Assembly: GCA_018267475.1 (NCBI GenBank)
Contig: JAFDYI010000006.1
Coordinates: forward strand, 62,001-126,000
Reading direction: 5' to 3'
Length of the DNA: 64,000 nt
Source of the DNA: Bacteroidota bacterium
Lineage (GTDB): Bacteria; Bacteroidota; Bacteroidia; B-17B0; Aurantibacillaceae
Shown here: piece after piece, positions 11,537-63,789 of the stretch
Position numbering within the stretch: position 1 is the first letter of the stretch
Layout of the letters: each line of letters begins with the position of its first letter
The notes under the pieces: model-generated
The model's input: the letters and a program-made list of their open reading frames with translations, nothing else
Told to the model about the DNA's origin: nothing
Database searches by the model: none
Program-made: the position numbers and the translations under genes

Positions 11537-13336
11537 ATGAGCCGTTTTAAATTTACTATAGGAAAAAAAATAGGTGCCGGCTTTGCTTTAGTTATTTTAC
11601 TTACCCTTATCGCTTTTATATTTACCAATACTGTAATTAATAACAGTAAAAGAGAAACGGAAGAAGTGGTACAGCACGTAACTCCCAGCGTGGCTACCTT
11701 AGAGTCGTTGCACCTGCTTATGCAGCGCTCGCAAATACTGATAACCCGATGGGTAAGCCAACAAAGCACAGACCAAGATCCTTCTAAAAAAGAATTACGC
11801 GACTTAATACGATACAAATATCCCAATGTAAAAAAAGCCTTGGACAGCCTTTCTACTCATTGGACCGATGACGAAAAAGATCAAATCAAAACCATTTTTT
11901 CATTAACCGATAAAATTTTTACACTTTATCAAAACGAAATTATGTCGCCGCTCAATTCATTTACCGCATACAACGATGCCTCTATAACACTGCCTATACA
12001 ACTAAGTATGGAATCGGTAGATGAAACCACCAAAATAATATACGAGCAACTAAACTCCCTCATAGATTCTCAAAAAAACAACGCCGAAACCGTTACCCAA
12101 AGAATGTTTTTATCGTTTAAGCACCTGCTAAACTTCGTTAAATACTTAGGTGTTTTTTTGGTGATAGGGGGTGTTTTAATTGCCTTTTTTACAGTAAGAA
12201 CCATTGTAAACCCCATTCAAAAATTAAAAAACATTATACAAGGCATGAGTTATGGCATGCTGCCTAACGACAGGCTGCCACCACGAAACGATGAAATAGG
12301 CGACATGAACGTAGCCTTAAACGACTTAGTATCATCAACCGAGCTTACTACCCATTTTGCCCGCGAAGTAGGGAACGGAAATTTCAACTCCTTTTACAAA
12401 CCCCTAAGCGAACACCATAAGCTGGGGCACGCTCTGCTAAAAATGCGTACCGACTTAGCCGAAAACGAGCGCGTACTCGAACAAAAAGTAATAGAGCGCA
12501 CCGAAGAGGTAGTAAAACAAAAAGAAGAAATACAACAAAAAAGCAACGAACTGGAAATTTTATACAAACAAGTAACCGATAGCATACGTTATGCCAAACG
12601 ATTACAAGATGCTATACTACCCTCCGATGCCGCTATAAAAGAAATACTGCCAAAATCTTTTGTGCTATTTAAACCCAAAGATATTGTAAGCGGCGATTTT
12701 TACTGGGCCAACCAGACAGGCGGCAAATCGTACATAGCCGCTATAGATTGCACCGGACACGGCGTACCGGGCGCTTTTATGAGTTTAGTGGGGCACAACA
12801 TTTTAAAAGAAATAGCTCTAAATAAAGAGGTGCTTCCTCCTGCTTCCATCATGGATAAAATGAGCAAAGAAGTAGTAAAAACACTAAACCCAAAATCAGG
12901 ATCTGCGGAAAATGCACATCAAACCAAAGATGGTATGGACATGAGTCTTTGTTGCGTAGATTATAACGCGATGGAGCTTCAATACTCGGGCGCTTTTAAC
13001 CCTTTATATTTAATCAGAAATGGAGAGCTTATTACCTACAAAGCCGATAAATTCCCTATTGGATTTAGATTTGATGAAACCATACAACATTTTACCAACA
13101 ACCTCATTAAGCTAGAAAAAGGCGATACTTTTTATATTTTTAGTGATGGATACGCCGACCAATTTGGCGGACCGAAAGGAAAAAAATTGATGACCGGCAA
13201 ATTTAAAGATGCGTTGTTACAAGCCAGTTCTTTACCGGTAGAAGAACAAAAGAAATTTTTAAACAACACCATTGAAAGCTGGCGCGGTACCTTAGAGCAG
13301 GTAGATGATATTCTAGTAATAGGAGTGCGCATTTAG
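11537..13336 (+). CDS. HAMP-domain SpoIIE/PP2C phosphatase sensor
   Basis: 599 residues. TM1 is at about 13-33, a periplasmic helical domain of about 160 residues resembles a four-helix-bundle MCP sensor, and TM2 is at about 198-220. A HAMP domain (NPIQKLKNIIQGM onward) follows, then a long coiled coil (about 305-350) and a SpoIIE phosphatase domain (about 365-599). Catalytic blocks are complete: VSGDFYW, DCTGHGVPGA, DGMDMSLC, SDGYADQFGGPKGKK and DDILVIG. It would dephosphorylate a Ser/Thr phosphoprotein in the cytoplasm in response to a periplasmic cue. It is the third gene of the YfiR-like operon. The HAMP/four-helix architecture is also that of YfiN, the known YfiR target, but the output here is a phosphatase rather than GGDEF. 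Confidence 0.92.
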   Translation: MSRFKFTIGKKIGAGFALVILLTLIAFIFTNTVINNSKRETEEVVQHVTPSVATLESLHLLMQRSQILITRWVSQQSTDQDPSKKELRDLIRYKYPNVKKALDSLSTHWTDDEKDQIKTIFSLTDKIFTLYQNEIMSPLNSFTAYNDASITLPIQLSMESVDETTKIIYEQLNSLIDSQKNNAETVTQRMFLSFKHLLNFVKYLGVFLVIGGVLIAFFTVRTIVNPIQKLKNIIQGMSYGMLPNDRLPPRNDEIGDMNVALNDLVSSTELTTHFAREVGNGNFNSFYKPLSEHHKLGHALLKMRTDLAENERVLEQKVIERTEEVVKQKEEIQQKSNELEILYKQVTDSIRYAKRLQDAILPSDAAIKEILPKSFVLFKPKDIVSGDFYWANQTGGKSYIAAIDCTGHGVPGAFMSLVGHNILKEIALNKEVLPPASIMDKMSKEVVKTLNPKSGSAENAHQTKDGMDMSLCCVDYNAMELQYSGAFNPLYLIRNGELITYKADKFPIGFRFDETIQHFTNNLIKLEKGDTFYIFSDGYADQFGGPKGKKLMTGKFKDALLQASSLPVEEQKKFLNNTIESWRGTLEQVDDILVIGVRI

Positions 13337-27126: not shown

Positions 27127-27795
27127 CTATGCCCAAAAAATTTCTTTTACGTTAGCGTTTTGCTTTAAATCGTTGATGATAGAGTCTATCTTTAAAAGGT
27201 TTAGGTTGTCGCCTTTTAGTTGAAAAATAAATTCATCTTCGTTTCTTTCGCAGGTAAGAATTTGTATTTTAAATTCTTCTTTACTCAAAATACCTTTAAA
27301 TAATTCGGTATTATCTACTTGCAAATTGGTAACAATGCGTAAGGTTTTTTGTGTAAACTTTTTATCATACATACGTTCTATGGGTTGCAAACCCCACAAG
27401 ATAAGGAGGGCAATGGTGGTGGCAATTCCGGCAGCAAAATACATGCCTCCTCCGGTAGCAAGGCCAATGCCGGCTACCGTCCACAAACCGGCAGCGGTAG
27501 TAAGCCCGCGTATAGTGCCTTGTTTAGAAAACAAAATAGTACCCGCGCCTAAAAAACCAATACCGCTAACTACTTGAGCGGCTATACGAGAGGGGTCTAA
27601 AGTAACATCTTTGGTGCCTAAAATATCAGAAAAACCAAAGGCAGAAACCATCATCACCAAGCAAGAGCCTACACATACCATCATGTGGGTACGCAAGCCT
27701 GCTGCCCAGTGTTTCCGTTCGCGCTCTAAGCCTATAAGGGCTCCTAACAGCGAGGCCAAAAATAAACGTATTACTATTTCGCTCCAGCTAAGCAC
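27127..27795 (-). CDS. MgtC/SapB family membrane protein
   Basis: 222 residues. The N-terminal half is the MgtC domain of about four spans with the blocks LGALIGLERERKHWAAGLRT, VVSGIGFLGAGTI and GLTTAAGLWTVAGIGLA. The C-terminal 70 residues (IVTNLQVDNTELFKGIL onward) form a small ACT-like soluble domain, as in other MgtC proteins. The family affects Mg2+ homeostasis and, in pathogens, ATP synthase and virulence. It is not a proven transporter. It follows the SiaC-like gene by 21 bases, so it may be the last gene of that transcript. Confidence 0.92.
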   Translation of the reverse strand: MLSWSEIVIRLFLASLLGALIGLERERKHWAAGLRTHMMVCVGSCLVMMVSAFGFSDILGTKDVTLDPSRIAAQVVSGIGFLGAGTILFSKQGTIRGLTTAAGLWTVAGIGLATGGGMYFAAGIATTIALLILWGLQPIERMYDKKFTQKTLRIVTNLQVDNTELFKGILSKEEFKIQILTCERNEDEFIFQLKGDNLNLLKIDSIINDLKQNANVKEIFWA

Positions 27796-27816: not shown

Positions 27817-28191
27817 TTAGCTAAAAGGAATCATTTCAAAAGGTTCGTTTAAAATGAACGAGTAGCTGCGCCCTGCCTCTTCAATGTCTTCATCATCTTC
27901 ACTGTAATGCCACTTGTATTTTATCGCAACGCCTTTTTCTTTTAGCTGTTGTACGGTTTTCATCAACTCTAAAATGTAACGCGCACTTCCTGTATTAAAA
28001 AAGTGCAAGTTTACCGATAGGGTAAATGTTTTTACCTCACTCGCTTCTACTTTTTGTACAAAGTGAATGATGGGTTTAAAAAAATCGTGTGTAAGTTCCG
28101 GAATGCAAATGCCTTCCATGGATAGTTCTCCGCTTTTTTTATTAAACAACACCTTAGGTGTTTTTTCTGTTGCTTCTAATTGCAATTCCAT
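27817..28191 (-). CDS. SiaC-like regulatory phosphoprotein (DUF1987)
   Basis: 124 residues, single DUF1987 domain. In Pseudomonas aeruginosa, SiaC is phosphorylated on Thr68 by the SiaB kinase and dephosphorylated by SiaA, a SpoIIE-type phosphatase, and its unphosphorylated form activates the diguanylate cyclase SiaD. Here the corresponding motif is LHFFNTGSARYILELMK with T67 as the likely phosphosite. The start (MELQLEATEKTPKVLFNKKSG) and the SMEGICIPE block match the family. The gene is 19 bases downstream of a giant SpoIIE sensor on the same strand, exactly the partner expected. No SiaB kinase or GGDEF gene is nearby. Confidence 0.88.
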   Translation of the reverse strand: MELQLEATEKTPKVLFNKKSGELSMEGICIPELTHDFFKPIIHFVQKVEASEVKTFTLSVNLHFFNTGSARYILELMKTVQQLKEKGVAIKYKWHYSEDDEDIEEAGRSYSFILNEPFEMIPFS

Positions 28192-28210
28192 AAGCCAATC
28201 ACAAATATAA

Positions 28211-31200
28211 TTATTTTTTTATTTCTAATTCTTCTTTTTTCTCTAAAACTGATTTTATGCAAAACCCTATTACGCATATATCATCTGTTTGGTTGCCTTT
28301 TTTCTTCCACTCTATATGACGTTTCCATAAAAAGTTTTTGCGCTTATCCATAGGTACAGACTGCATTTCGATAAGAGTTTGCTTAAATTGTGCTTTGCTG
28401 TATTTTTTAATACTGGTACCATTAAACTGGTCAAAATAACCATCGCTGCTCATATATATTTTCATGTCGGGCGACAAAATGCGTATTTCGGTAGTAAAAT
28501 GCGCTTTTAGCTCGGAGGCTATGCCTCCAATAGGTATTCTATTTCCCTTTATTTCAGTTAGTTCATGGCCTTGCACTACATAAAGGCTGTGCATAGCGCC
28601 GCCAAACATCAGCACTTTTCGCTTCAAATCCATTACGCAAAGCGATACATCTAAACCATCTAAAATATCGTCGTTGCGTTTGTATTGATTCAGTGATTCT
28701 TTTATTCGTTTATTTAAAAAATCAAGAATAACACCGGGGTCTGAAAAGTTACGTTCTATTACGGCTTGCGAAATAATGTTGCCACACAAAATACTAAGCA
28801 AGGCGCCCGAAACCCCATGTCCGGTACAATCGCCCAAAGCCATAAAAATTTTATCGTCTTTTTTATGGCACCAGTAAAAATCGCCTCCAATTACATCGCG
28901 CTGTTTTAAAATCACAAAAGAAGCAGGAATAATAGCTTGCATAAACGATTCGGGGGGCATGATAGATTGTTGTATGCGAAGCGAGTATTCTATATTATCC
29001 GATATGTCTTTGTTTTTTTCAGATAATTCTTTTCTATACGTAATTTGCTCTATACCTAATTGGATAGACTCCGCCAAATCGGTTAATAGCTGAATATCTT
29101 GGTCGGAAAACGTATCGGGTTTAGACGAAATAACGGATATAGTTCCGGTAATTCGTTGCTCACGACGAATGGCTACGCTTAAAAAAGAGCGGGTGTTTGC
29201 TTTTATCACCTCGTCCGGAAAACTATTTACCGAAGCAATTTTTGCAGGGGTAGCGCTGCTGTATAATAAGTAGTCTTTTTTGTTGTAAGCGGCAAAATTA
29301 AAATGCGCTACTTCGGTTTGTAGGTTGCGTTTTACGCTATGCGAGCTCATTTCGTAATGAAATGTTTCTAATTGCTTGCGTTGTTCGTTATGAAAAGTAA
29401 CAAAAGTGCTTTTGTATTGAGCAATGTTGGTGCACAGGCGGCGCAATACGGAATCCATCAGTTCGCTCACCGTTTTTGCATTTATAAATTCTTTTTTGAT
29501 GGAATTGATAACCTCTAAGCGTTCGGAATAGCTTTGAATGCGTGTGTTTTGCAGTTCAATCGTTTCTTTTTTATCAATTTTATCAAGAGTAACGGCAATG
29601 GCATCGGCTACTTGGCGAGCAAAATTTACGTAATCATGATCAAAAATATATGACTGAGTAGAAGCTAAATTTAAAGCACCTACTAGTTTCTTTTCAAAAA
29701 ATATAGGCGTGATGACGTACGAGTTGATGCCCAGTGGCTTTAATAATTGTATATCACTATTTGAAAGAGATCCTGAATCAAGTAAATCATTTATTTGGTA
29801 GTGTTTGTTTTGCAACAAAGTAGGCAGGCTTCTATAATCAACGGCCGGTATAATGGTAGCTTCTATTTTTTTAGTTTGAGTGTTAAACTCATGAAGGTGG
29901 GCGGTTTTAATATCTTCATCAAAAAGAGTAAGAGTAATGCGCTCGGCATCGGCTACTTTTGTTTTTAGTTGATTCAATACTTTTTCTACTAAAACGGTTC
30001 GGGTGGAGGCTTCTAATACTACTTGTTTTATTTCATTTAGTATCTCTAGTCGTTCGGAGTGTTTGCGTATGTGTTCGTTTTTTTCAGCAATAATGCGCTG
30101 CGCTTCTATGCGGTCGGTAATATCGCGGCCTATCACCTGAAAGCCTATTACCTTTTCGGTATTTTCATCGTCTTTGTATAATTTTACAGATAAGCCCAAC
30201 CAGCGTTCGGCCCCTCCTTTTACTAAAGTAGGTATTTCTATATAATCTTCTTGTATGTTGTTTTTTAGTAAGTTCACATTAAAGTCATATACTTTTTGCT
30301 GGTGCGAAGGGCTTAGCAACTGCTTCATGTTCATGGCCAGCAACTCGTCGTGTGTGTACCCGGTAAAGCGTGTGCCTACGTCGTTTACGTATGTAAATAC
30401 TCCGTTTATATCGGTTATATAAATTACATCGCTGGCCGACTCTACTATGTGTTTGTATTTTTCTTCCAAACGTTTTTGTTCGGTAACATCAATACCCATG
30501 CCCACTACTATGTTCTCGTTTATCACGCTGTTTTCCCACTGTATGTAGTGTACTACGCCTCTTTTGTCGGTAATGCGTTCTAACTGATTCCGCTCTATAG
30601 TATGTGCTACAATAGTGTCTTTTACTTCTTGGTTGTGCCCGGTATCACCCGATCGTATTTGCCACCAACCGTTGCCAAGCAATTCTTTTTCAGTATAGCC
30701 CAATAAGGGTTCAAAGTTTTTTGAAGCAAAAATAATTTCACCTTCTTTATTAGCAGCCAATACCAAGGCATTCCCGTTGTTTATAGTGGAGTTGGCAAAA
30801 AGCAATTTGTCCGATAAGTTAAGGTGTACCTGTATGCTTATAAGCGTTAAAACCACGGCTGAAATAAGCGTTACGATATACATAAGAGGGCTGTACCCTG
30901 GGCTGCTGGTAGCCAGCAAAACCCATAAGCCCATAGCTAATACAAAAAAGCCATATATTAAAAAAGGTTTTACTTTATTTAAAATTAAATGGGCTATATT
31001 AATTACTAATATTATGGATATTAGGAAGTAAGGCGCTAAACTTGTTTCATATATCAAATACAAATACATAGTAGATATGCCATAAAGCATAATAGTAAGC
31101 ACCCCTTTTGCATGATTTTTTACATAGGTAGAAGTAAATGAAAAAAGCATGGTAGTAAACAATAGAACGCCCGCTCCTATATGGAAATATAAAATACTGT

Positions 31201-33628
31201 CGTAAATACCGGTAGCAATAGCATATACAATACCGCTTATTATAATAAGAACAGAGCCTCCGGCTAAAATAATGCGGGCGTTGGCCAAGTTAAACACGGT
31301 ATCGGTTGATCGAATTAATTCTTCTTTATAGCTTTTAAATACTCTGATAAAGAGCACCATAACAGAGAACAACAGGGTAAGTGCAATGATAAAAAAACTG
31401 TTGGTTTTCCAAAACGGAGGGCTTATTTCAAAAGCAAATTCAGAAGGGGCACTCCAGTTAATGCCGTCGTAGGAAACGGCTACATAAAAAATATACTTAC
31501 CGTTATCTAAATTGGAATAAATAGCCTTGTTGGTTTTTTCGGCGTACATCCATTTTTTATCAAAGCCTTCTAGCTTGTATTTAAGCATGTATTTATTGTT
31601 GCCTAAAGCGTTAAACACTTCAAACCCGAAGGTAAGGTTGTTTTGGTCGTAAGCTAAAGTTAAGTTTTCAGGTAAGTTGGCTTTAGCATTAAAAGCATAA
31701 CCCAAACGCACCCAGTTGGTAGTATCATTAAACAATTGTATAGAAGTAAGCTTTACTATTAAGCCGCGCAGAATGTCTTGATCGCGATTAGGGGCGTAGC
31801 TTACCAAGCCCTGACTGGTACCTATATAAAAAGTGCCGGATAAGCCACGCACTAAAGAGTTGGGTAAAAATTCCGCGTTATTTCTACTAAAATTATCAAT
31901 TAGTTCATCTATTTTAGTTTGATTGGGAGCAAAACTTATTTTGTACAAACTGTTAGAAGAGGTTACAAATAATTCATCGTCGGTTGTGGCATAAACCGAT
32001 TTTATAAACACGCTTTTTAAGCCCTGCCGGCGTTCTATTTGCGTAAACATCTTGTTGTTTTTGTTGTACCTAAAAACACCAAAACCATCGGTAGAGGCAT
32101 TGATATAGCTGGGCGTACAGGCAATAGAATGTATGGCTGATTCGGAAAGCTGGTTGTCTTTATCAATAAGCTTGGATATTTGTTTATCTTTTATGTAATA
32201 CAGACCTCTATCGGTTCCCACCCAAATCAAATCGCCATCGGTAGCTATGCAGTAAATAGAAAGCCCGTGAAAGCGAGCCGAAAAATTGCTCAGTTCTTTT
32301 GTTTTAAGCGAGTACAAGAGTAAGCCTTGCTTATCGGTACCTACCAGCAGTGCGGTATCGCTTAAAAATTTGACCGACAAGATATTGGCATTGGTGCTTA
32401 TGGTTTGCGTACTTTTTCCGGTGGCTCCATCGTATATATCTATATTAGAAAAAAGTTTTCCTATAGCTACCTGCCTGTTTTTACTGTTGTAATCGGCACA
32501 AGTAACGTTTTCTGTTTTGATGTCAAAGAAAGGGGAGATGTTTTTTTCATCAAAAAAGCAAGCGCCCGCCGAAGTGCAAAGAATAAACAGATTATCTTCA
32601 TAAGGAAGAATTTGCCTGCAATTATTAGCCGGCAAATTTTGCTTCATATTATATATTAAAAAATTTTGATTGAGCAGCACCGATACCCCTTGCGAAGCCG
32701 TACCGCACCAAGCGTTTCCATAGCTATCTGTTATTACGCTTAGTAATTTGTTATCGGCCAAACCATTTTCTTCTGTAATACATTGGTACTCTTTCTCGTT
32801 GTATTTTACCAATCCGTTACCAAAAGTAGCAAACCAAATACCTCCTTTTTTGTCCACATAAATATCGGAGGTAGAGGCCAGCCACATAGGCTTAGGCCCG
32901 TCAAGCCAGGTGGTGCTATGAAAATTGTATTGCATCACTCCCTTGTCGGCTACGCTAATAAATAATTTAGCATCAAAATATGTTTCTATATCTTGTATTT
33001 TTTCGTTTTGTAAGGTATCGTACAAGGATTGATACTTCTCTATAAGTGTTTTATCTAAGGTATTAAAAGCGTATATGCCGCTGCTTGCCGTACCCAACCA
33101 CAACTCGTTTTCTGCTTGATGCAAATACCCGCAGGTAACGTTTTCTACATCTACTTTTAAGTTCGTGTAAAACTGCGAAAACTTTCTATCTTTTAACTCC
33201 CATACACCCAAAGAGGTAAGCACATATAAATCCGAATCGTTTACCGGAATAATTTTGTTGATGCTGATGGGGTTGTTTCGCGAATAAAGAGGATACTCTT
33301 CGGTATAATTGCCTATACATTTAAACACCGACCTGTCTGTAGCGAACCAAGTATAATCGTCGCTTTCTGCAATTGATTTTATGGGGCGCGTAAGCGAAAC
33401 CGGGTTGCGGGCATATACATCAATAAAACTTTTTCCGGCATATTTTTTTATGCCCTCGTTTGTGCCAATCCAAATATAACCTTCTTCTCCTTGATACAAA
33501 CAGTTTACCTGCGAATTAGGCAAACCATCGTGCAAGGTAAGTTGCGAAAAATTAAACTCTTGCGCAAAAGAAACGGCAGACAAAAAAAATCCGATAAGAA
33601 AAAAAACAGTACTTATTTTTTGTTTCAT
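28211..33628 (-). CDS. Giant propeller-7TM-PAS-GAF-SpoIIE sensor phosphatase
   Basis: 1805 residues. In order: signal peptide; Reg_prop beta-propeller repeats (about 25-635, units like GYIWIGTNEGIKKY, LIWVGTDRGLYYI); Y_Y_Y domain (about 665-740); a membrane region with one span near 745-765 and about seven more to 945; two PAS domains (about 955-1060 and 1055-1175, with YTEKELLGNGWW, DVIYITDINGVFTYVND); two GAF domains (about 1205-1345, 1378-1528); linker helix NIEYSLRIQQSIMP; SpoIIE phosphatase (about 1550-1790: IGGDFYW, DCTGHGVSGA, DGLDVSLC, SSDGYFDQFNG, DDICVIG). It combines periplasmic and cytosolic inputs to control dephosphorylation of a partner, most likely the adjacent SiaC-like protein. 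ATG 33628 is preferred over TTG 33634. The propeller repeats are diverged, unlike those at 52 kb. Confidence 0.92.
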   Translation of the reverse strand: MKQKISTVFFLIGFFLSAVSFAQEFNFSQLTLHDGLPNSQVNCLYQGEEGYIWIGTNEGIKKYAGKSFIDVYARNPVSLTRPIKSIAESDDYTWFATDRSVFKCIGNYTEEYPLYSRNNPISINKIIPVNDSDLYVLTSLGVWELKDRKFSQFYTNLKVDVENVTCGYLHQAENELWLGTASSGIYAFNTLDKTLIEKYQSLYDTLQNEKIQDIETYFDAKLFISVADKGVMQYNFHSTTWLDGPKPMWLASTSDIYVDKKGGIWFATFGNGLVKYNEKEYQCITEENGLADNKLLSVITDSYGNAWCGTASQGVSVLLNQNFLIYNMKQNLPANNCRQILPYEDNLFILCTSAGACFFDEKNISPFFDIKTENVTCADYNSKNRQVAIGKLFSNIDIYDGATGKSTQTISTNANILSVKFLSDTALLVGTDKQGLLLYSLKTKELSNFSARFHGLSIYCIATDGDLIWVGTDRGLYYIKDKQISKLIDKDNQLSESAIHSIACTPSYINASTDGFGVFRYNKNNKMFTQIERRQGLKSVFIKSVYATTDDELFVTSSNSLYKISFAPNQTKIDELIDNFSRNNAEFLPNSLVRGLSGTFYIGTSQGLVSYAPNRDQDILRGLIVKLTSIQLFNDTTNWVRLGYAFNAKANLPENLTLAYDQNNLTFGFEVFNALGNNKYMLKYKLEGFDKKWMYAEKTNKAIYSNLDNGKYIFYVAVSYDGINWSAPSEFAFEISPPFWKTNSFFIIALTLLFSVMVLFIRVFKSYKEELIRSTDTVFNLANARIILAGGSVLIIISGIVYAIATGIYDSILYFHIGAGVLLFTTMLFSFTSTYVKNHAKGVLTIMLYGISTMYLYLIYETSLAPYFLISIILVINIAHLILNKVKPFLIYGFFVLAMGLWVLLATSSPGYSPLMYIVTLISAVVLTLISIQVHLNLSDKLLFANSTINNGNALVLAANKEGEIIFASKNFEPLLGYTEKELLGNGWWQIRSGDTGHNQEVKDTIVAHTIERNQLERITDKRGVVHYIQWENSVINENIVVGMGIDVTEQKRLEEKYKHIVESASDVIYITDINGVFTYVNDVGTRFTGYTHDELLAMNMKQLLSPSHQQKVYDFNVNLLKNNIQEDYIEIPTLVKGGAERWLGLSVKLYKDDENTEKVIGFQVIGRDITDRIEAQRIIAEKNEHIRKHSERLEILNEIKQVVLEASTRTVLVEKVLNQLKTKVADAERITLTLFDEDIKTAHLHEFNTQTKKIEATIIPAVDYRSLPTLLQNKHYQINDLLDSGSLSNSDIQLLKPLGINSYVITPIFFEKKLVGALNLASTQSYIFDHDYVNFARQVADAIAVTLDKIDKKETIELQNTRIQSYSERLEVINSIKKEFINAKTVSELMDSVLRRLCTNIAQYKSTFVTFHNEQRKQLETFHYEMSSHSVKRNLQTEVAHFNFAAYNKKDYLLYSSATPAKIASVNSFPDEVIKANTRSFLSVAIRREQRITGTISVISSKPDTFSDQDIQLLTDLAESIQLGIEQITYRKELSEKNKDISDNIEYSLRIQQSIMPPESFMQAIIPASFVILKQRDVIGGDFYWCHKKDDKIFMALGDCTGHGVSGALLSILCGNIISQAVIERNFSDPGVILDFLNKRIKESLNQYKRNDDILDGLDVSLCVMDLKRKVLMFGGAMHSLYVVQGHELTEIKGNRIPIGGIASELKAHFTTEIRILSPDMKIYMSSDGYFDQFNGTSIKKYSKAQFKQTLIEMQSVPMDKRKNFLWKRHIEWKKKGNQTDDICVIGFCIKSVLEKKEELEIKK

Positions 33629-33723
33629 ATACAACTAATGTTTAGGCTTAGCTCTGTTATGTAACCGACGAAAGTAAGGAAAAAAAAACACAATTAAAAC
33701 AAAACAATATATTCTTTTAAAAA

Positions 33724-52036: not shown

Positions 52037-55000
52037 ATGAAACAACGTTCACTGCTTTGCATATTATTGGTTTTCACATATTCCTGCACCCAAAACAGTT
52101 TACACGAAAAAGGAAAAGCCCGCGGCAGCGATACCGTATTAGAGGCCGTTGGTATTGTGATGAATGCCGATACTATAAAACCCGCAAAAGTACTTGCTGC
52201 CGGCACGCCAAAAACAATTAAAGCCGGAGCGCCCATTGTAAAAGAAATAGAACCAAACTTTGGGGAAGCCGGGGGCCTTAGCATGATGCAAAATTATACG
52301 ACCGATAACGGCTTGGCCTTAGACGCCATTTCTTTAGGGCACAAAAGCGCTTTGTGCGATAGAAACGGAAATATCTGGTTTGGTACCAATGGCGGAGGCG
52401 CGTCGCGCTACGATGGCAAATCCTTTACTCATTTTAGCACCGCGCAGGGGTTGCCCCATAATGTTGTTTTAAGCATTACCGAAGATAAAAGCGGAAATAT
52501 CTGGTTCGGAACCGATGGCGGAGGAGCGAGCCGCTACGACGGCAAATCCTTTACTCATTTTAGCACCGCACAAGGGCTGGCCCATAATGTTATTCATAGC
52601 ATCACCGAAGATAAAAACGGAAATATCTGGTTCGGAACCGAGGGCGGAGGCGTGAGCCGTTATGATGGGAAATCCTTTACTAATTTTAGCACCGCTCAGG
52701 GGCTAACTGATAATTTTGTTTACAGCATCACCGAAAATAAAAACGGAAATATCTGGTTCGGAACCGATGGCGGCGTGAGCCGTTATGATGGTAAATCCTT
52801 TACTCATTTTAGCACCGCAGAAGGACTGGCCCATAATGTTGTTTTGAGCATCACCGAAGATAAAAGCGGGAACCCCTGGTTCGGTACTTATGGCGGAGGG
52901 GTGAGCCGTTATGATGGGAAATCCTTTACTAATTTTACCAGCGCGCAGGGGCTGGCATCAAACGATGTTAGAAGCATCGCCGAAGATAAAAGCGGAAACC
53001 TCTGGTTCGGTACTTATGGCGGAGGAGTGAGCCGTTACGATGGGAAGTCCTTTACCAATTTCACTACCGCACAGGGGCTGGCCCATAATGTTGTTTGCAG
53101 CATTACCGAAGATAAAAGCGGAAATATCTGGTTCGGTACACAAGGCGGAGGAGTAAGCCGTTACGACGGCAAATCCTTTACTAATTTTAGCACCGCACAA
53201 GGGCTGGCCCATAATGTTGTTTATAGCATCACCGAAGATAAAACCGGAAACCTCTGGTTCGGTACATCAGGCGGAGGAGTGTCGCGTTACGATGGGAATG
53301 GTGTAGATGACATCGTAAACGGAACAAACTTGTATCAACACACTCAACAAGACCTAAAAAAAAACAAAAAAAATCTTATTAAATCCTTTACTAATTTTAG
53401 CACCGCACAAGGGCTGCCCAATAATATTGTTTATAGCATCACCGAAGATAAAAGTGGAAACCTCTGGTTCGGTACATCAGGCGGAGGCGCGTCGCGCTAC
53501 GATGGTAAATCCTTTACCAATTTTACCACCGCACAAGGGCTGGCTCATAATATTGTTTATAGCATCACCGAAGATAAAAGCGGAAACCTCTGGTTCGGTA
53601 CATTAGGCGGAGGCGCGTCGCGCTACGATGGTAAATCCTTTACCCATTTCACCACCGCACAAGGGCTGGCCCATAATTTTGTTTTCAGCATCACCGAAGA
53701 TAAAAATGGAAATATCTGGTTCGGCACCGATGGCGGAGGAGTAAGCCGTTATGACGGCAAATTCTTTACCAATTTTACCACTGAGCAAGGACTGGCTTAT
53801 AATTTTGTTTATAACATCACTGAAGATAAAAGCGGAAACCTCTGGTTCGGTACAGCAGGCGGAGGAGTAAGCCGCTACGATGGGAAATCCTTTATCAATT
53901 TCACCACTGCGCAGGGACTTCCGGATAATACGGTAACACAAGTTGTACTATCTAAAGAGCAGAACATCGTTATGGGAACAAACTTCGGGGTGGCGGTAGT
54001 GGATTCTTTCATCTCAAAGTTAGAGATAAACAACAAAAAAAACAAGATTCCCGCAGCAAATAGTTTAAGCAATCAGGAGTTGAAAAACTATGAACCGGTA
54101 ATAGAAATTTATAATACCGCAACCGGTTACCCGATAAAGGATGTCAATTCAGGGCAGGGAGCCATGTATTGTGACAGCAAGGGGATTATATGGGTAGCCA
54201 CCGGCTCGGATAAAACCGGGCTTGTGCGTTTCGATTACAAGGCCTTGAATAAAAACCCGAATCCGCCAAAAGTGATCATTCAAAGCATTAAAATAAACGA
54301 AGAAAACGTGTGCTGGTATAATTTAGATGGGGTAAAAAATGATAGCGCAACAAAAGCGCAGCAGGAAGTGCAGACGTTTGGCAAACCGTTATCTACACAA
54401 GAACGCGATAGTTTAAGGGCTCGATTCGGAGAAATAAAATTTGATGGAATCAGCAAATTTTACCCTTTACCGGAAAACCTGGTGTTGCCCTACAAGAATA
54501 ATCATATCCGTTTTGAGTTTGCTGCAATAGAGCCGGCGAGGCCTTACCTTGTAAAATACCAATATCTATTAGAGGGCTATGATGAGGAATGGAGCCCGCT
54601 AACCAACAAAACCGATGTGAGCTTCGGTAATATCTACGAAGGCACTTACACATTCAAATTAAAAGCAAGAAGTCCGTTTGGAATTTGGAGCGAGCCCATA
54701 ACATATACTTTTAAAGTTTTACCGCCCTGGTGGCGCACCTGGTGGATGTATGCGGTATATGGAATCATTGCGGTTGGACTTATTTCAGCTATAGTTTGGT
54801 ACAATGGCAAAAAATTAAGGGCAAGGGCTAAAGAGTTGAAAACAAAGGTGGACGAAGCTACCATAGAAATAAAGGAGCAAAAACGCCTTATTGAAGAAAG
54901 ACACAAAGAAATAACCGACAGCATCAATTACGCAGAAAGAATACAGCGTTCGTTATTAGCAAGTAAAAAAACGCTGGATGAAAGCCTAAAAGACTACTTT

Positions 55001-55672
55001 GTTTTGTTTAAGCCAAAAGATGTGGTAAGCGGCGATTTTTACTGGGCAGCAAACCTTGTCGGTTCAAGTGGAGTTGAAAACTTTTTACTCTGCGTTGCCG
55101 ACAGCACAGGCCACGGTGTACCCGGAGCTATTATGAGTATATTGAATATTGCCTGTCTGAAAGAAGCATCGCTTCAGGGAATAACCAGTCCTGATTTATT
55201 CTTGAATAAAACAAGGAGTTTAATTATTGAAAATTTAAAAAACGATGGCAGTGCTGAAGGCGGAAAAGACGGAATGGATGGAAGCTTATTGAGCTTTGAT
55301 TTTAAAAACAACATCTTGTATTGTGCTTGCGCCAATAATCCCGTTTGGATAATAAGAGAAGGAATTTTAATAGAAATAAAAGCCGACCGTTTCCCTATAG
55401 GTAAATACGATAGAGATAAGGAGCCTTTTACGTTGCATACGATAAAGTTACAAAAAGGCGATGTTGTTTACACTTTAACCGATGGTTTTCCCGATCAGTT
55501 TGGCGGCCCTTCCGGTAAAAAATTTAAATACAAAAAACTTCAGGAATTATTGTTGTCCATTGCAGGCGATCCGATGCCCATTCAAAAACAAAAGCTACAT
55601 GAGGCTTTTGAAAGCTGGAAAGGCAATTTAGAGCAGGTAGATGACGTTACGATTGTCGGAGCCCGCATTTAA
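52037..55672 (+). CDS. Reg_prop-Y_Y_Y-TM-SpoIIE sensor phosphatase
   Basis: 1211 residues. The N-terminus (LLCILLVFTYSCTQNS) resembles a lipoprotein signal. Twelve near-identical 42-residue Reg_prop repeats (111-641), such as GNIWFGTDGGGASRYDG, form a beta-propeller. A Y_Y_Y domain follows (about 823-901), one span (about 903-922), a coiled coil and the linker helix DSINYAERIQRSLLA. The SpoIIE phosphatase (about 960-1211) has VSGDFYW, DSTGHGVPGA, DGMDGSLL, TDGFPDQFGGPSGKK and DDVTIVG. The classic DCTGHG reads DSTGHG here, with Ser replacing Cys. It links an extracytoplasmic ligand to phosphatase activity. Repeat 8 carries a 28-residue insertion. It has its own promoter and no operon partner. 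Confidence 0.92.
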   Translation: MKQRSLLCILLVFTYSCTQNSLHEKGKARGSDTVLEAVGIVMNADTIKPAKVLAAGTPKTIKAGAPIVKEIEPNFGEAGGLSMMQNYTTDNGLALDAISLGHKSALCDRNGNIWFGTNGGGASRYDGKSFTHFSTAQGLPHNVVLSITEDKSGNIWFGTDGGGASRYDGKSFTHFSTAQGLAHNVIHSITEDKNGNIWFGTEGGGVSRYDGKSFTNFSTAQGLTDNFVYSITENKNGNIWFGTDGGVSRYDGKSFTHFSTAEGLAHNVVLSITEDKSGNPWFGTYGGGVSRYDGKSFTNFTSAQGLASNDVRSIAEDKSGNLWFGTYGGGVSRYDGKSFTNFTTAQGLAHNVVCSITEDKSGNIWFGTQGGGVSRYDGKSFTNFSTAQGLAHNVVYSITEDKTGNLWFGTSGGGVSRYDGNGVDDIVNGTNLYQHTQQDLKKNKKNLIKSFTNFSTAQGLPNNIVYSITEDKSGNLWFGTSGGGASRYDGKSFTNFTTAQGLAHNIVYSITEDKSGNLWFGTLGGGASRYDGKSFTHFTTAQGLAHNFVFSITEDKNGNIWFGTDGGGVSRYDGKFFTNFTTEQGLAYNFVYNITEDKSGNLWFGTAGGGVSRYDGKSFINFTTAQGLPDNTVTQVVLSKEQNIVMGTNFGVAVVDSFISKLEINNKKNKIPAANSLSNQELKNYEPVIEIYNTATGYPIKDVNSGQGAMYCDSKGIIWVATGSDKTGLVRFDYKALNKNPNPPKVIIQSIKINEENVCWYNLDGVKNDSATKAQQEVQTFGKPLSTQERDSLRARFGEIKFDGISKFYPLPENLVLPYKNNHIRFEFAAIEPARPYLVKYQYLLEGYDEEWSPLTNKTDVSFGNIYEGTYTFKLKARSPFGIWSEPITYTFKVLPPWWRTWWMYAVYGIIAVGLISAIVWYNGKKLRARAKELKTKVDEATIEIKEQKRLIEERHKEITDSINYAERIQRSLLASKKTLDESLKDYFVLFKPKDVVSGDFYWAANLVGSSGVENFLLCVADSTGHGVPGAIMSILNIACLKEASLQGITSPDLFLNKTRSLIIENLKNDGSAEGGKDGMDGSLLSFDFKNNILYCACANNPVWIIREGILIEIKADRFPIGKYDRDKEPFTLHTIKLQKGDVVYTLTDGFPDQFGGPSGKKFKYKKLQELLLSIAGDPMPIQKQKLHEAFESWKGNLEQVDDVTIVGARI
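52367..53959 (+). repeat. Array of twelve 126-bp Reg_prop repeats
   Basis: Twelve in-frame copies of a 42-codon unit; copy 4 is one codon shorter and copy 8 is expanded by 28 codons. Copies are far more alike than usual Reg_prop blades, so the array was probably expanded or homogenised recently. Confidence 0.92.
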
Positions 55673-59533: not shown

Positions 59534-59607
59534 AGATTAAATTTTTCTAAAAAAAGGGTATTCGCAACATTTTATGTGACCGTACTGCTTAACCTCAAAA
59601 ATACGTG

Positions 59608-59615
59608 TATATTTG
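59608..59615 (+). promoter_or_regulatory. -7 promoter element TATATTTG next to an ATG start
   Basis: A perfect TAnnTTTG element ends 5 bases before ATG 59621, predicting a leaderless or nearly leaderless mRNA. It also rules out the upstream alternative start at 59576. Confidence 0.5.
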
Positions 59616-59620
59616 GGCAA

Positions 59621-61546
59621 ATGAACAAAACGGTTTTTTCTTGTTTCTTTATTTTATGGTCTTGTATAAGCGTGGCTCAAATAAGCAAAGATTCTGCTTT
59701 TCTCTTTGCTACGCAGGGCGCCCTCTCAGACAACTTTGAAAAAAACTACTTACTATCTCAAAAAGTATTAGCCTATTTTATACAAAGGTCGGACACGGTT
59801 CATGTTATAGAATCCTTTCAAAAAACGGGCGATATGTTGTGGTTTAAAGGTTTGTACGGACAAGCTGAAGAGTATTATTTTAAATCTTTGCAATTTGCCG
59901 ATTCCACCCAAACCCCCAATTTATATGCTTATGCTTTGTACAGCATAGGTTGGATTGAGTGTGTGCAAAAAGGGAAACAAGATAAAATGGATATGCTAAA
60001 AAGGGCGCTCCGAATTTGTTTAAAAACAAATAACGCCAACTATCTTGTAAACATATATAATTCGTTAGGAGGGGCTTATGGAAATTTTTATCAAAAAGAC
60101 ACAACCAAAACAAATTATGTAGATTCTGCTATTGTTTTTTTGCGGGCTGCTTTTCAAATAAATAAAAAGAACGAATTAAGGTATCTCAACCCTCAAATAA
60201 AAATCAATTTAGCTAATGAGTTTAGCAGGAAAAAAGAATACGATTCGGCGCTTTATTATGTAAATGAAGTTTTAGCTGAATCAAAACAAAATAACGAAAA
60301 ATTATTCTTATCTGCTACTACGCTAAAAAGCAACATTTTTCTTAGTGTTGGAAAAACAGACAGCGCTCTTTATTTGGCTTTAAACAATTTAAAAAAAATA
60401 CAAAATTCCGACAATAAAGAAATGATGGAAAATTTATACTTAGCCTTATATTTAGGGTATAAAATCAAAAAAAATCCCACAGAAGCATTAAAGTATTTAG
60501 AAAAGCTAAATACTTTGCAGAAAAAAATAACACAAGAGTTAATGTCCACCCAATACGAAGATTTAAACGCTAGTTATCAAATACTAAAAAAAGGACAAAA
60601 GATTTCGGAACTCACCAAACAAAACGAATTGTATGAAGTAAAAGAAAAGCAAAAAACCCTTGTGTTGGTTGGCGCTCTTATTTTGATACTGTTCGGTACG
60701 GTTTTTATTTTTTTTACAGTTAAACAAAATAGAAGAATAAAAAAATTGCACGCCGATGTATCCACTCAAAAACACTTAGTAGAAGAAAAAAATAAAGAAA
60801 TAACGGATAGCATTACCTACGCCAAGCGCATACAAAACGCCATACTGCCCAACCCAAAAAAATGGCAAACACTGCTGCCTCATAGTTTTGTGTTGTATCA
60901 ACCCAAAGATATTGTAGCCGGCGATTTTTATTGGCTGGAAGAAACCGCGCAATACCTCTACATTGCCGCTGCCGATTGTACCGGCCACGGCGTGCCGGGC
61001 GCTATGGTAAGCGTGGTGTGTAGCAGCGCCCTTAGCAAAGCTGTGTTAGAAGAAAAGCAAACCGAAACCCATGCCATATTAGATGCTACCCGCCGTTTGG
61101 TATTAGAACAATTAGGCAAAAGCGAAGAAAAAATACGCGACGGTATGGATATTTGCCTGATACGCATCAACAAAAACAACCGCAAGCACATACAATACAG
61201 CGGAGCCAACAGGCCGCTATACATAAGCAACGCGCAAGGCGAACTGCAAGAACTCAAACCAGACAAACAACCCATTGGTGAATATGAAAATGAAAAGCCT
61301 TTTAGTCAGCAAGAACTTGTTTTAAATGAAAACGATACCTTGTACTTGCTTACCGATGGCTATGCCGACCAATTTGGCGGCGACAACAACAAAAAGTTTA
61401 GCAGCAAAGCCCTAAAAAAACTCATGACCGAAAACGCTCACAAAACCATAGAAGAGCAAAACCGTATTTTTACCCAAGCTTTTTTTAGTTGGCGCAACAA
61501 CATAGAACAAACCGATGACGTAACCTTGCTGGGGATTAAAATCTAA
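59621..61546 (+). CDS. TPR-SpoIIE sensor phosphatase (first of a tandem pair)
   Basis: 641 residues: signal peptide (FSCFFILWSCISVAQ), helical TPR-type repeats in the periplasm (about 20-330), one span (about 348-368), coiled-coil linker with DSITYAKRIQNAILP, and a SpoIIE phosphatase domain (about 415-641). Catalytic motifs are complete: VAGDFYW, DCTGHGVPGA, DGMDICLI, TDGYADQFGGDNNKK, DDVTLLG. Its last 260 codons are nearly identical to those of the next gene, whereas the TPR sensor parts differ. ATG 59621 is set by the -7 element and the signal peptide. The likely role is dephosphorylation of a partner-switch protein in response to a periplasmic cue. Confidence 0.92.
   Translation: MNKTVFSCFFILWSCISVAQISKDSAFLFATQGALSDNFEKNYLLSQKVLAYFIQRSDTVHVIESFQKTGDMLWFKGLYGQAEEYYFKSLQFADSTQTPNLYAYALYSIGWIECVQKGKQDKMDMLKRALRICLKTNNANYLVNIYNSLGGAYGNFYQKDTTKTNYVDSAIVFLRAAFQINKKNELRYLNPQIKINLANEFSRKKEYDSALYYVNEVLAESKQNNEKLFLSATTLKSNIFLSVGKTDSALYLALNNLKKIQNSDNKEMMENLYLALYLGYKIKKNPTEALKYLEKLNTLQKKITQELMSTQYEDLNASYQILKKGQKISELTKQNELYEVKEKQKTLVLVGALILILFGTVFIFFTVKQNRRIKKLHADVSTQKHLVEEKNKEITDSITYAKRIQNAILPNPKKWQTLLPHSFVLYQPKDIVAGDFYWLEETAQYLYIAAADCTGHGVPGAMVSVVCSSALSKAVLEEKQTETHAILDATRRLVLEQLGKSEEKIRDGMDICLIRINKNNRKHIQYSGANRPLYISNAQGELQELKPDKQPIGEYENEKPFSQQELVLNENDTLYLLTDGYADQFGGDNNKKFSSKALKKLMTENAHKTIEEQNRIFTQAFFSWRNNIEQTDDVTLLGIKI
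60767..61546 (+). repeat. 780-bp near-identical SpoIIE module, copy 1
   Basis: This stretch aligns without gaps to 63010-63789 at a constant offset of 2243 bases. Over 259 residues I count nine differences, so the copies result from a recent duplication or gene conversion. Confidence 0.95.
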
Positions 61547-61608: not shown

Positions 61609-63789
61609 ATGCTTAAAATTAAAATAACACAAGTAGTATTTTTTACTTTTCTTTTTGTTTCGAAACTCTCTTTAATTTCTCAAAACGCCAATACATTACT
61701 AAAGCGCCTCTCTTTAGAGAAAAACCAAGATACTATAGCGAATTTAACTGGAGAGATAGGAAGGCTGTACCTAAAAGAAGGAAATATGGAGAAAGCCCTT
61801 GAGTATTTAAAGAAAGAGTTAGAGTTAAGCAAAAATATTTATACAGAAAGACATAAGGCTTATTGTTACAATACCATAGCCACAATATATGCCCGAGTTG
61901 GAAACACAAACGAAGCTATTAGTAATTTTATAAGAGCTTTAAAAATAGCTGAAGATGAAAAGGATTATAAACTTGCATCAGGGCTTTATAACAACATAGG
62001 GAATCTTTATGTTAAATTAAAAATGCTTGAAGATGCTTTGAAGTACATTCATAAAGGGATGGAGCTTAAAAAACAAATTGGGGATAAAAATATTACGCCC
62101 AATTTATATTCTATATCAAACATATATAGAACGCAAAAAAAATATCAAGATGCTATTAAATACTTGAATGAGGCATATAAAGAAATGGATACCGCGTCGG
62201 AAATTAATGGATTTAAGTACAAACCGGTTATTTTAAACAGCTTGGGCGCGTGTTATAGAGCATTAGGCGATTACGATAAAAGCTTACACTATTATAAAAA
62301 ATGCGAAGGTGTTTTGCAATCAGCAGATTTTAGTGCCTTATCTAGTTTATACAATAATATTGCTGTACTTTACGAATACAAAAATCAATACAGGGTATCG
62401 TTATCCTATCAATTAAAAGCCTATGAAATGCAGAAAAAAATGAACCAGATAGAAGATCAAATGGTAAGTTGTAGGAATTTGGTTGTTTACTTTGCAAAAT
62501 TAAATGAGGGAGATTCTGCCAGTATGTATTTTGAACTTTATATTGCTTTAGCGGATTCTGTTCAGAAAATTCAAAATTCTGAAATGCTTCACGAGGTGGC
62601 GAAAAAATACGATACCGAGAAAAAAGAAGCTCAAATAACTTTGTTAGCAAAAGATAAAGAGTTACAAAAATTATTGATCAAAAACCAAGAAAAGGATTTA
62701 CTCCAAAAACAAATTGAAGCAAAGCAAAAAGAGGATAAAATATTGCTATTAAATAAAGACGTTGCGTATAACGAAGTGTTGTTGCAAAAAGAAACTTTTG
62801 AAAAAGAAAAAAAATTAAAGGAAAACGAAGTACTAAATATAGAGAATAAATTATCAAGTGAAACCATTAAGCAGCAAAAGCTAGTATCTTATTTTATTGT
62901 GGGTGGTTTGGTTTTAGCCTTACTGTTTTCTTTTTTTATTTTCAGAGGGTTAAAAGCTCAACGAAAAGCCAATCGAATCATATCTAAACAAAAACAAGAA
63001 GTAGAAAAACAAAAACACTTAGTAGAAGAAAAAAACAAAGAAATAACGGATAGCATTACCTACGCCAAACGCATACAAAACGCCATACTGCCCAACCCAA
63101 AAAAATGGCAAACACTGTTGCCTCATAGTTTTGTATTGTATCAACCCAAAGATATTGTAGCCGGCGATTTTTATTGGTTAGAAGAAACCGCACAATACCT
63201 CTACATTGCCGCTGCCGACTGCACCGGCCACGGTGTGCCGGGCGCCATGGTAAGCGTGGTGTGCAGCAGCGCCCTTAGCAAAGCCGTGTTAGAAGAAAAA
63301 CAAACCGAAACCCATACCATATTAGGTGCTACCCGCCGTTTGGTATTAGAACAATTAGGCAAAAGCGAAGAAAAAATACGCGACGGCATGGATATTTGCC
63401 TGATACGCATCAACAAAAGCAACCGCAAGCACATACAATACAGCGGAGCCAATAGGCCGCTATACATAAGCAACGCGCAAGGCGAACTGCAAGAACTCAA
63501 ACCGGACAAACAGCCCATTGGTCAGTACGAAAACGAAAAACCTTTTAGCCAGCAAGAGCTTGTTTTAAATGAAAACGATACCTTGTACTTGCTTACCGAT
63601 GGCTATGCCGACCAATTTGGCGGCGACAACAACAAAAAGTTTAGCAGCAAAGCCCTAAAAAAACTCATGACCGAAAACGCCCACAAAACCATAGAAGAGC
63701 AAAACCGTATTTTTACCCAATCTTTTTTAAGCTGGCGCAACAACATAGAGCAAACCGATGATGTAACCTTGTTGGGGGTAAGGATGTAG
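61609..63789 (+). CDS. TPR-SpoIIE sensor phosphatase (second of a tandem pair)
   Basis: 726 residues: signal peptide (VVFFTFLFVSKLSLISQ), several clear TPRs (about 50-290, for example GNMEKALEYLKKELELSK, ASGLYNNIGNLYVKLKMLED), a long charged coiled coil (about 330-420), one span (about 426-446), linker helix and SpoIIE domain (about 490-726) with the same motifs as its neighbour. The phosphatase end is nearly the same protein as the previous gene's, but the sensor and coiled coil are quite different. It lies 62 bases downstream on the same strand. Two different sensors feeding one catalytic type suggests a shared target. Confidence 0.93.
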   Translation: MLKIKITQVVFFTFLFVSKLSLISQNANTLLKRLSLEKNQDTIANLTGEIGRLYLKEGNMEKALEYLKKELELSKNIYTERHKAYCYNTIATIYARVGNTNEAISNFIRALKIAEDEKDYKLASGLYNNIGNLYVKLKMLEDALKYIHKGMELKKQIGDKNITPNLYSISNIYRTQKKYQDAIKYLNEAYKEMDTASEINGFKYKPVILNSLGACYRALGDYDKSLHYYKKCEGVLQSADFSALSSLYNNIAVLYEYKNQYRVSLSYQLKAYEMQKKMNQIEDQMVSCRNLVVYFAKLNEGDSASMYFELYIALADSVQKIQNSEMLHEVAKKYDTEKKEAQITLLAKDKELQKLLIKNQEKDLLQKQIEAKQKEDKILLLNKDVAYNEVLLQKETFEKEKKLKENEVLNIENKLSSETIKQQKLVSYFIVGGLVLALLFSFFIFRGLKAQRKANRIISKQKQEVEKQKHLVEEKNKEITDSITYAKRIQNAILPNPKKWQTLLPHSFVLYQPKDIVAGDFYWLEETAQYLYIAAADCTGHGVPGAMVSVVCSSALSKAVLEEKQTETHTILGATRRLVLEQLGKSEEKIRDGMDICLIRINKSNRKHIQYSGANRPLYISNAQGELQELKPDKQPIGQYENEKPFSQQELVLNENDTLYLLTDGYADQFGGDNNKKFSSKALKKLMTENAHKTIEEQNRIFTQSFLSWRNNIEQTDDVTLLGVRM
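63010..63789 (+). repeat. 780-bp near-identical SpoIIE module, copy 2
   Basis: Gap-free partner of 60767-61546, including the linker helix and stop codon. Identity breaks off sharply before the coiled-coil linker. Confidence 0.95.

Follow-up and report, generated by a model that had tools for sequence, protein, structure and literature searches.

A SpoIIE sensor phosphatase–SiaC gene pair in a Bacteroidota genome without a GGDEF match, and a candidate transporter output

What does a SiaC switch control in a bacterium in which no diguanylate cyclase gene can be found? The question is raised by a 64,000-nucleotide stretch of DNA (the window: positions 62,001 to 126,000 of contig JAFDYI010000006.1, assembly GCA_018267475.1) from a member of the Aurantibacillaceae, in which a gene for a large SpoIIE-type sensor phosphatase is followed by a gene for a small SiaC-family protein. 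In Pseudomonas, the phosphatase SiaA and the kinase SiaB act on a threonine of SiaC (PMC7647112). The one role described for SiaC in the literature that we found is to activate a diguanylate cyclase, yet it is conserved in a family nearly devoid of such enzymes. Our reading, to which we assign a probability of roughly 0.5, is that the window genes form a dedicated phosphatase–switch pair whose SiaB kinase is encoded elsewhere, and that the output is not a diguanylate cyclase and is most likely the TerB/FHA-like N-terminus of an ATP-binding cassette (ABC) transporter.

The gene pair and its predicted phosphosite

Both genes lie on the minus strand and are separated by 19 bases (28192-28210), so the arrangement described in an earlier sequence-only reading is borne out by the coordinates and by Pfam. 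The features discussed here are as follows.

28211-33634, minus strand: sensor phosphatase, here SiaA2 (Pfam and NCBIfam, match to the PDB SiaA PP2C domain, hydropathy, genus-mate orthologs)
28262-28858, minus strand: SpoIIE/PP2C catalytic domain, residues about 1593-1790, aligned to 6k4e (C34:90262-90858 on the contig, less the 62,000 offset)
27817-28191, minus strand: SiaC2, putative regulatory phosphoprotein of 124 amino acids (PF09345; AlphaFold model against PDB SiaC)
27991-27993, minus strand: codon of T67 in the FFNTGS motif, predicted phosphorylation site (alignment to T68 of P. aeruginosa; helix in the model)
27127-27795, minus strand: MgtC-family gene, 21 nt downstream of SiaC2 (PF02308), included as an excluded conserved partner

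Both genes are genuine. An open frame of 1807 codons with ordered domains does not arise by chance. The open reading frame (ORF) listing starts the sensor phosphatase at a TTG at 33634, and the ATG two codons further in, at 33628, which is the coordinate given in the sequence-only reading, is the likely start codon.

SiaC2 matches PF09345 with E=1.5e-29 (102.5 bits against a cut-off of 24.5) and SiaC in the PDB with 2e-12 in a sequence search, and it scores 69 bits with the SiaC equivalog model NF038265, below the curated cut-off of 150 bits. Its AlphaFold model (five models, 49 sequences) has a predicted local distance difference test (pLDDT) score of 95. The best PDB matches of the model are eight SiaC chains, including those in SiaB-SiaC and SiaC-SiaD complexes, with template modeling (TM) scores of 0.81-0.89, and the next fold match is the STAS protein RsbV at a TM score of about 0.5. 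SiaC2 aligns with Pseudomonas SiaC over its whole length. T67, the residue that the sequence-only reading had proposed as the likely site, falls opposite T68 in the sequence alignment, and together with the fold match this passes the refuting condition set by that reading, a failure of T67 to align with T68. T67 opens helix 67-86 in the model, just as T68 sits at the first residue of helix 2 in Pseudomonas SiaC (PMC7647112, PMC8457831). T67 is thus the likely phosphosite of SiaC2 as judged from alignment and model, and the phosphorylation chemistry is assigned to it by analogy. The residue that follows differs, with N67-T68-S69 in Pseudomonas and N66-T67-G68 in SiaC2.

The sensor phosphatase has 1807 residues, in which Pfam identifies a Reg_prop propeller, a Y_Y_Y domain (677-737), two PAS domains, two GAF domains and SpoIIE (1593-1790). 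Hydropathy adds a signal-peptide-like N-terminus and hydrophobic segments within residues 742-941, which we read as about seven membrane spans, and the propeller is predicted to lie in the periplasm. The rich input noted by the sequence-only reading is therefore present domain for domain, but its propeller–Y_Y_Y part is not peculiar to this gene; the same input is found on the core SpoIIE protein beside siaBC in a relative (L126) and on the protein encoded at 52037-55672 of the window. The catalytic part matches the solved PP2C domain of SiaA (6k4e) with E=1.7e-33 and carries the metal-site motifs GGDF, GDCTGHG, SSDGYFDQ and TDD, as read from the sequence. The SiaA model NF038263 gives 167.4 bits on the C-terminal 260 residues, short of its full-length equivalog cut-off of 700 bits, and we take the protein to be a homolog of the phosphatase part of SiaA only, rather than a SiaA equivalog. 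The SiaA/SiaC type proposed earlier for the pair stands.

A SiaA-related SpoIIE/PP2C domain behind a sensor and a membrane part is what a SiaA-type phosphatase would be expected to have; SiaA2 has it, but it is not a discriminating feature. The four remaining SpoIIE proteins encoded in the window match the SiaA model as well (7e-48 to 7e-62), with similar or better scores. The match does not single out 28211-33634 because all five share it, and we have dropped it as proof of pairing with SiaC2. These five genes (11537-13336, 28211-33634, 52037-55672, 59576-61546 and 61609-63789) belong to a genomic set of 19; the last two are consecutive TPR-SpoIIE phosphatase genes on the plus strand.

The SpoIIE domain of SiaA2 shares 29-38% identity with the others tested from its own genome, and most of those share about 37-46% with the core SpoIIE of relatives. 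SiaC2 is 39% identical to SiaC1, the core SiaC encoded elsewhere in the genome, and the two divergences would fit an insulated, paired branch. Orthologs of SiaC2 are 71-73% identical in three genus-mates (G356, G357 and G358), with a fragment in a fourth (G360). The SpoIIE proteins beside them are 53-62% identical to SiaA2, the one in G357 being full-length and collinear, and orthologous pairs turned up in the genus of the window genome only. A SiaC tree, which is based on 120 columns and has many open forks and long branches, was used for two groupings only: SiaC2 and its genus-mates form one clade apart from SiaC1 (98 by the Shimodaira–Hasegawa-like approximate likelihood ratio test, SH-aLRT), otherwise of unsettled position, and SiaC1 clusters with the transporter-adjacent SiaC of the family f8 genome G045 (support 93).

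Do the neighbours of the pair reveal its output? The MgtC-family gene begins 21 nt past SiaC2 on the same strand and could be the output partner. It is absent after SiaC2 in the three genus-mate loci (L090, L091 and L092), and the neighbourhood comparison, in which the genes flanking the pair differ between the window genome and the genus-mates and no conserved neighbouring partner appears, largely refutes it. An MgtC output is very unlikely.

Kinases without a cyclase

The assembly that holds the window (2.76 Mb, 99% complete) encodes two SiaC, two SiaB (DUF6272) and, as noted above, 19 SpoIIE proteins in a genome-wide search. SiaB1 adjoins SiaC1 on contig C20, and the orphan SiaB2 lies at C34:53834-54406, on the same contig as SiaC2 and 35 kb from it, beyond the window. 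Each of them can be aligned with Pseudomonas SiaB (6kko) and retains a GxGLG box and, at the position of the residue described as catalytic there, a Glu. The kinase component of a SiaABCD system is thus encoded, by two DUF6272 genes, neither of them beside SiaC2; the earlier statement that there is no SiaB kinase is right for the immediate neighbourhood and wrong for the genome. The same search of the whole genome, which the sequence-only reading had suggested as a check, returned no GGDEF gene and hence no SiaD-type diguanylate cyclase.

One possibility raised by the position of the SiaB genes is that SiaC2 is a phosphate sink that competes with SiaC1 for SiaB, so that the sensor would tune the core switch indirectly and SiaC2 would have no output of its own. 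The lack of a SiaB gene beside SiaC2 and the occurrence of the core SiaB1-SiaC1 pair in nearly every family genome are consistent with a sink. A mere sink is harder to reconcile with the second SiaB of the genome and with the FFNTGS motif and helix-2 surface, which are retained in all SiaC2 orthologs, and we consider it improbable.

The absence of GGDEF, which the sequence-only reading had noted for the neighbourhood, extends to the whole genome and essentially to the whole family: among 87 family genomes only one has a GGDEF match, a fragment broken by a stop, while the same search was positive in 8 of 14 control genomes. SiaC is present in 85 of the 87 (and in 62 of 62 good ones), at 1 to 13 copies per genome, and SiaB likewise in 85. 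Even where its known output is missing, then, the SiaC switch is retained and increases in copy number. Across the phylum SiaC is rare (17 of 296 genomes in an even sample). In other classes, every genome with SiaC also gives a GGDEF match, and one family has 6-10 copies.

Could the output nevertheless be c-di-GMP (cyclic di-GMP), made by a diverged or overlooked diguanylate cyclase? This is the known output of SiaC (PMC8457831, PMC7647112), and in another class of Bacteroidota a GGDEF gene lies within about 1 kb of SiaC (G125, G133 and G268). Set against these points are the lack of any match in a 99% complete genome and in 86 of 87 family genomes and the positive controls, which together make this the least probable of the explanations weighed here, one to which we give almost no credence. 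Since the genome encodes no diguanylate cyclase, the target of SiaC2 should be something else, and the suggestion of the sequence-only reading that the output may differ from c-di-GMP was well judged. The window pair probably serves as an input arm, specific to its genus, for a SiaABC switch with an output other than c-di-GMP.

An ABC transporter as candidate output

If not a cyclase, what might SiaC bind? Clustering of SiaC neighbourhoods in families f1, f8 and f9 revealed a recurrent next gene encoding a protein of about 1000 amino acids. Its domains are ABC_tran, ABC2_membrane and, at the N-terminus, a TerB domain that scores above the Pfam cut-off. This candidate transporter has about 1,030 residues and a TerB plus FHA-like N-terminus. 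In a model of its first 265 residues (pLDDT 87), a helical part comes first and then a beta domain, which resembles FHA domains in fold, with probability up to 1.0. A sequence search of the N-terminus against solved structures gave a marginal FHA match alone (E=0.063). The N-terminal model also has a match of about 130 columns, probably in the helical part, to a functionally uncharacterized Porphyromonas protein.

Three kinds of evidence link this protein to SiaC. The first is gene order. In a GTDB scan, the 80 best loci carry the labels Cytophagales, Cyclobacteriaceae, Fulvivirgaceae, Flammeovirgaceae, Bacteroidales, Salinivirgaceae and others, and SiaC lies directly upstream of the TerB-ABC gene on the same strand in 68 of them (median gap 67 nt), an adjacency of 85% that is inflated because the query, the transporter N-terminus, was built from SiaC-adjacent members. 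The order SpoIIE-SiaB-SiaC-ABC is found in 63 of the 80, and the genes are linked in most of L149-L228; in other Bacteroidota the series runs SpoIIE-SiaB-SiaC-transporter-lipoprotein. A less biased count comes from the phylum sample, where all four class genomes outside f1 that have SiaC have it adjoining a TerB-ABC gene. The second is fusion. In G304 (L081) and G328 (L229), an ORF of 377 or 374 amino acids combines a transporter-type N-terminus with a SiaC domain (E 6.8e-15 and 3.6e-22 in a genome-wide N-terminal profile search), and the transporter gene comes directly after it. In L072, L074, L081 and L085, there is a 4-nt overlap between a SiaC-containing ORF and the ABC gene. The third is co-occurrence, for which the N-terminal profile was run against 80 genomes. 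In the class, 48 of 51 genomes with SiaC and none of 20 without it have the transporter, the 20 being those among the genomes listed; a plain Fisher test gives 8e-15, with few independent contrasts because most positives belong to one family (f1). In family f9, three genomes have both SiaC and the transporter and G076 has neither. The nine SiaC-positive genomes of other classes, with their GGDEF matches, have no transporter.

The operon has further members. A lipoprotein-like family of about 300 amino acids, for which Pfam gives no match above cut-off, is encoded within two genes of 80 of 96 TerB-ABC transporters (e.g., L157:13153-14052 and L134:4162-4998). In Ohtaekwangia koreensis (L157), a CheR methyltransferase, a CheB methylesterase and a GAF protein (L157:3137-5333) precede SpoIIE-SiaB-SiaC-ABC, and genes for lipoprotein-like, small secreted-type and hydrolase proteins follow; genes equal in size to the three preceding ones occupy the same place in many other loci, and the CheR and CheB proteins might provide methylation-based adaptation of the sensor. 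Two other neighbours of the core locus in relatives, a DeoC/LacD aldolase and a carboxyl transferase domain protein, were set aside as outputs; they are housekeeping-like and do not occur at other SiaC loci. The window genome has a single transporter gene (C33:964-4077; 1037 amino acids, PF05099 above cut-off), followed by a lipoprotein homolog (E=1.7e-34).

The transporter as a target is argued for by operon structure, fusion and co-occurrence for SiaC generally, and the case is weaker for SiaC2. Besides the inflated adjacency and the small number of contrasts, several points count against it. The transporter on C33 is near neither SiaC gene of the window genome. The FHA-like label comes from the fold alone, at a best E of 0.003, and the Arg and Ser/His usual in a phosphothreonine pocket do not show up among the invariant columns of the transporter N-terminus. 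SiaC2 has Gly beside the phosphosite, where most SiaC proteins have Ser or Ala, and as a diverged paralog of SiaC1 it may have another target.

An alternative is accordingly that SiaC2 is switched by the window phosphatase and acts elsewhere, for example on a helical-stalk protein or an anti-sigma-like factor, and that only SiaC1 controls the transporter. The restriction of SiaC2 to one genus, its divergence, the single unlinked transporter gene, the resemblance of the SiaC fold to STAS anti-anti-sigma factors such as RsbV and the different neighbourhoods of other Bacteroidota SiaC loci, with for instance a histidine kinase or an AAA protein, all agree with such a division of labor. No alternative partner is conserved beside SiaC2, where the flanks vary as described above, and we hold this explanation to be possible, if somewhat unlikely.

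With the transporter as the preferred target, periplasmic and cytoplasmic signals at the propeller, membrane part, PAS or GAF domains would control SpoIIE activity, and the phosphatase would, by analogy with the Pseudomonas proteins, remove phosphate from T67 of SiaC2, which a DUF6272 kinase encoded elsewhere, SiaB2 or SiaB1, would restore. Unphosphorylated SiaC2 may then be free for target binding. The contact would be with the TerB/FHA-like cytoplasmic N-terminus of the transporter, which would work with the neighboring lipoprotein, and binding may require T67 to be free of phosphate, which is the case for SiaD, or to carry it, which would be in keeping with an FHA domain. SiaC2, rather than only SiaC1, would feed the transporter. 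More broadly, we see an even chance that in GGDEF-less Bacteroidia the SiaABC switch has been rewired to an ABC transporter, with SiaC gating export or assembly, and that 19 sensor phosphatases converge on few SiaC proteins, the window pair being one insulated arm.

Other SiaC arrangements and known systems

SiaC and SiaB occur in several further arrangements. A protein encoded beside SiaC at L118:10162-12039 combines a response-regulator receiver, a SpoIIE phosphatase and a SiaB kinase, i.e., opposing enzymes in one chain, and a 1060-amino-acid protein in L097 also has SpoIIE and SiaB matches. Tandem SiaB domains in one protein of about 364-382 amino acids adjoin SiaC in L088, L109, L111 and L231-L234. 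In six family genomes, a stand-alone SiaC gene without adjacent SpoIIE or SiaB is next to a DUF218 gene (L070, L071, L073, L075, L077 and L108). In other classes, SiaC is followed by a gene for 77-99 amino acids and then a large gene (L119:5893-10345, its large gene encoding three AAA domains, and L121:6679-10244; L120 has the small gene only), which is possibly a further SiaC output.

A link between SiaC and a transporter is unreported in the open-access literature that we found, where SiaABC is described with SiaD in Pseudomonas only. If it is true, phosphothreonine partner switches would, as far as that literature shows, gain an output that is new for them, the post-translational regulation of a transporter, and it would help to explain what the many SpoIIE sensor phosphatases of such bacteria feed into.

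The closest known system is SiaABCD of Pseudomonas aeruginosa, which shares with the window system a SpoIIE phosphatase with SiaC, a conserved threonine with which helix 2 begins, SiaB-type kinases in the genome and the SiaC fold (TM score up to 0.89) (PMC7647112, PMC8457831). The window system differs in having no GGDEF enzyme, a kinase outside the operon, a propeller–7TM–PAS–GAF input (7TM, seven membrane spans) and, as its candidate output, a TerB-ABC transporter. The RsbU/RsbW/RsbV and other SpoIIE-STAS partner switches likewise combine a PP2C phosphatase and a kinase with a small phosphoprotein whose fold is STAS-like, whereas the window phosphoprotein belongs to the SiaC family rather than STAS, and no link to a sigma factor is seen at the locus. 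Partner-switching logic is also shared with HsbR/HsbA/HsbD and BgrV/BgrR, of which HsbA, HsbD, BgrV and BgrR have been named as switches that control diguanylate cyclases (PMC8457831). Their switch protein is of the STAS family and their output is a diguanylate cyclase, an enzyme that the window genome lacks. On the output side, mycobacterial Rv1747 is an FHA-domain ABC transporter under Ser/Thr protein kinase control. Like Rv1747, the candidate transporter would be an ABC exporter with a cytoplasmic FHA-like region, but it adds TerB, and its predicted regulator is SiaC in place of a Ser/Thr protein kinase.

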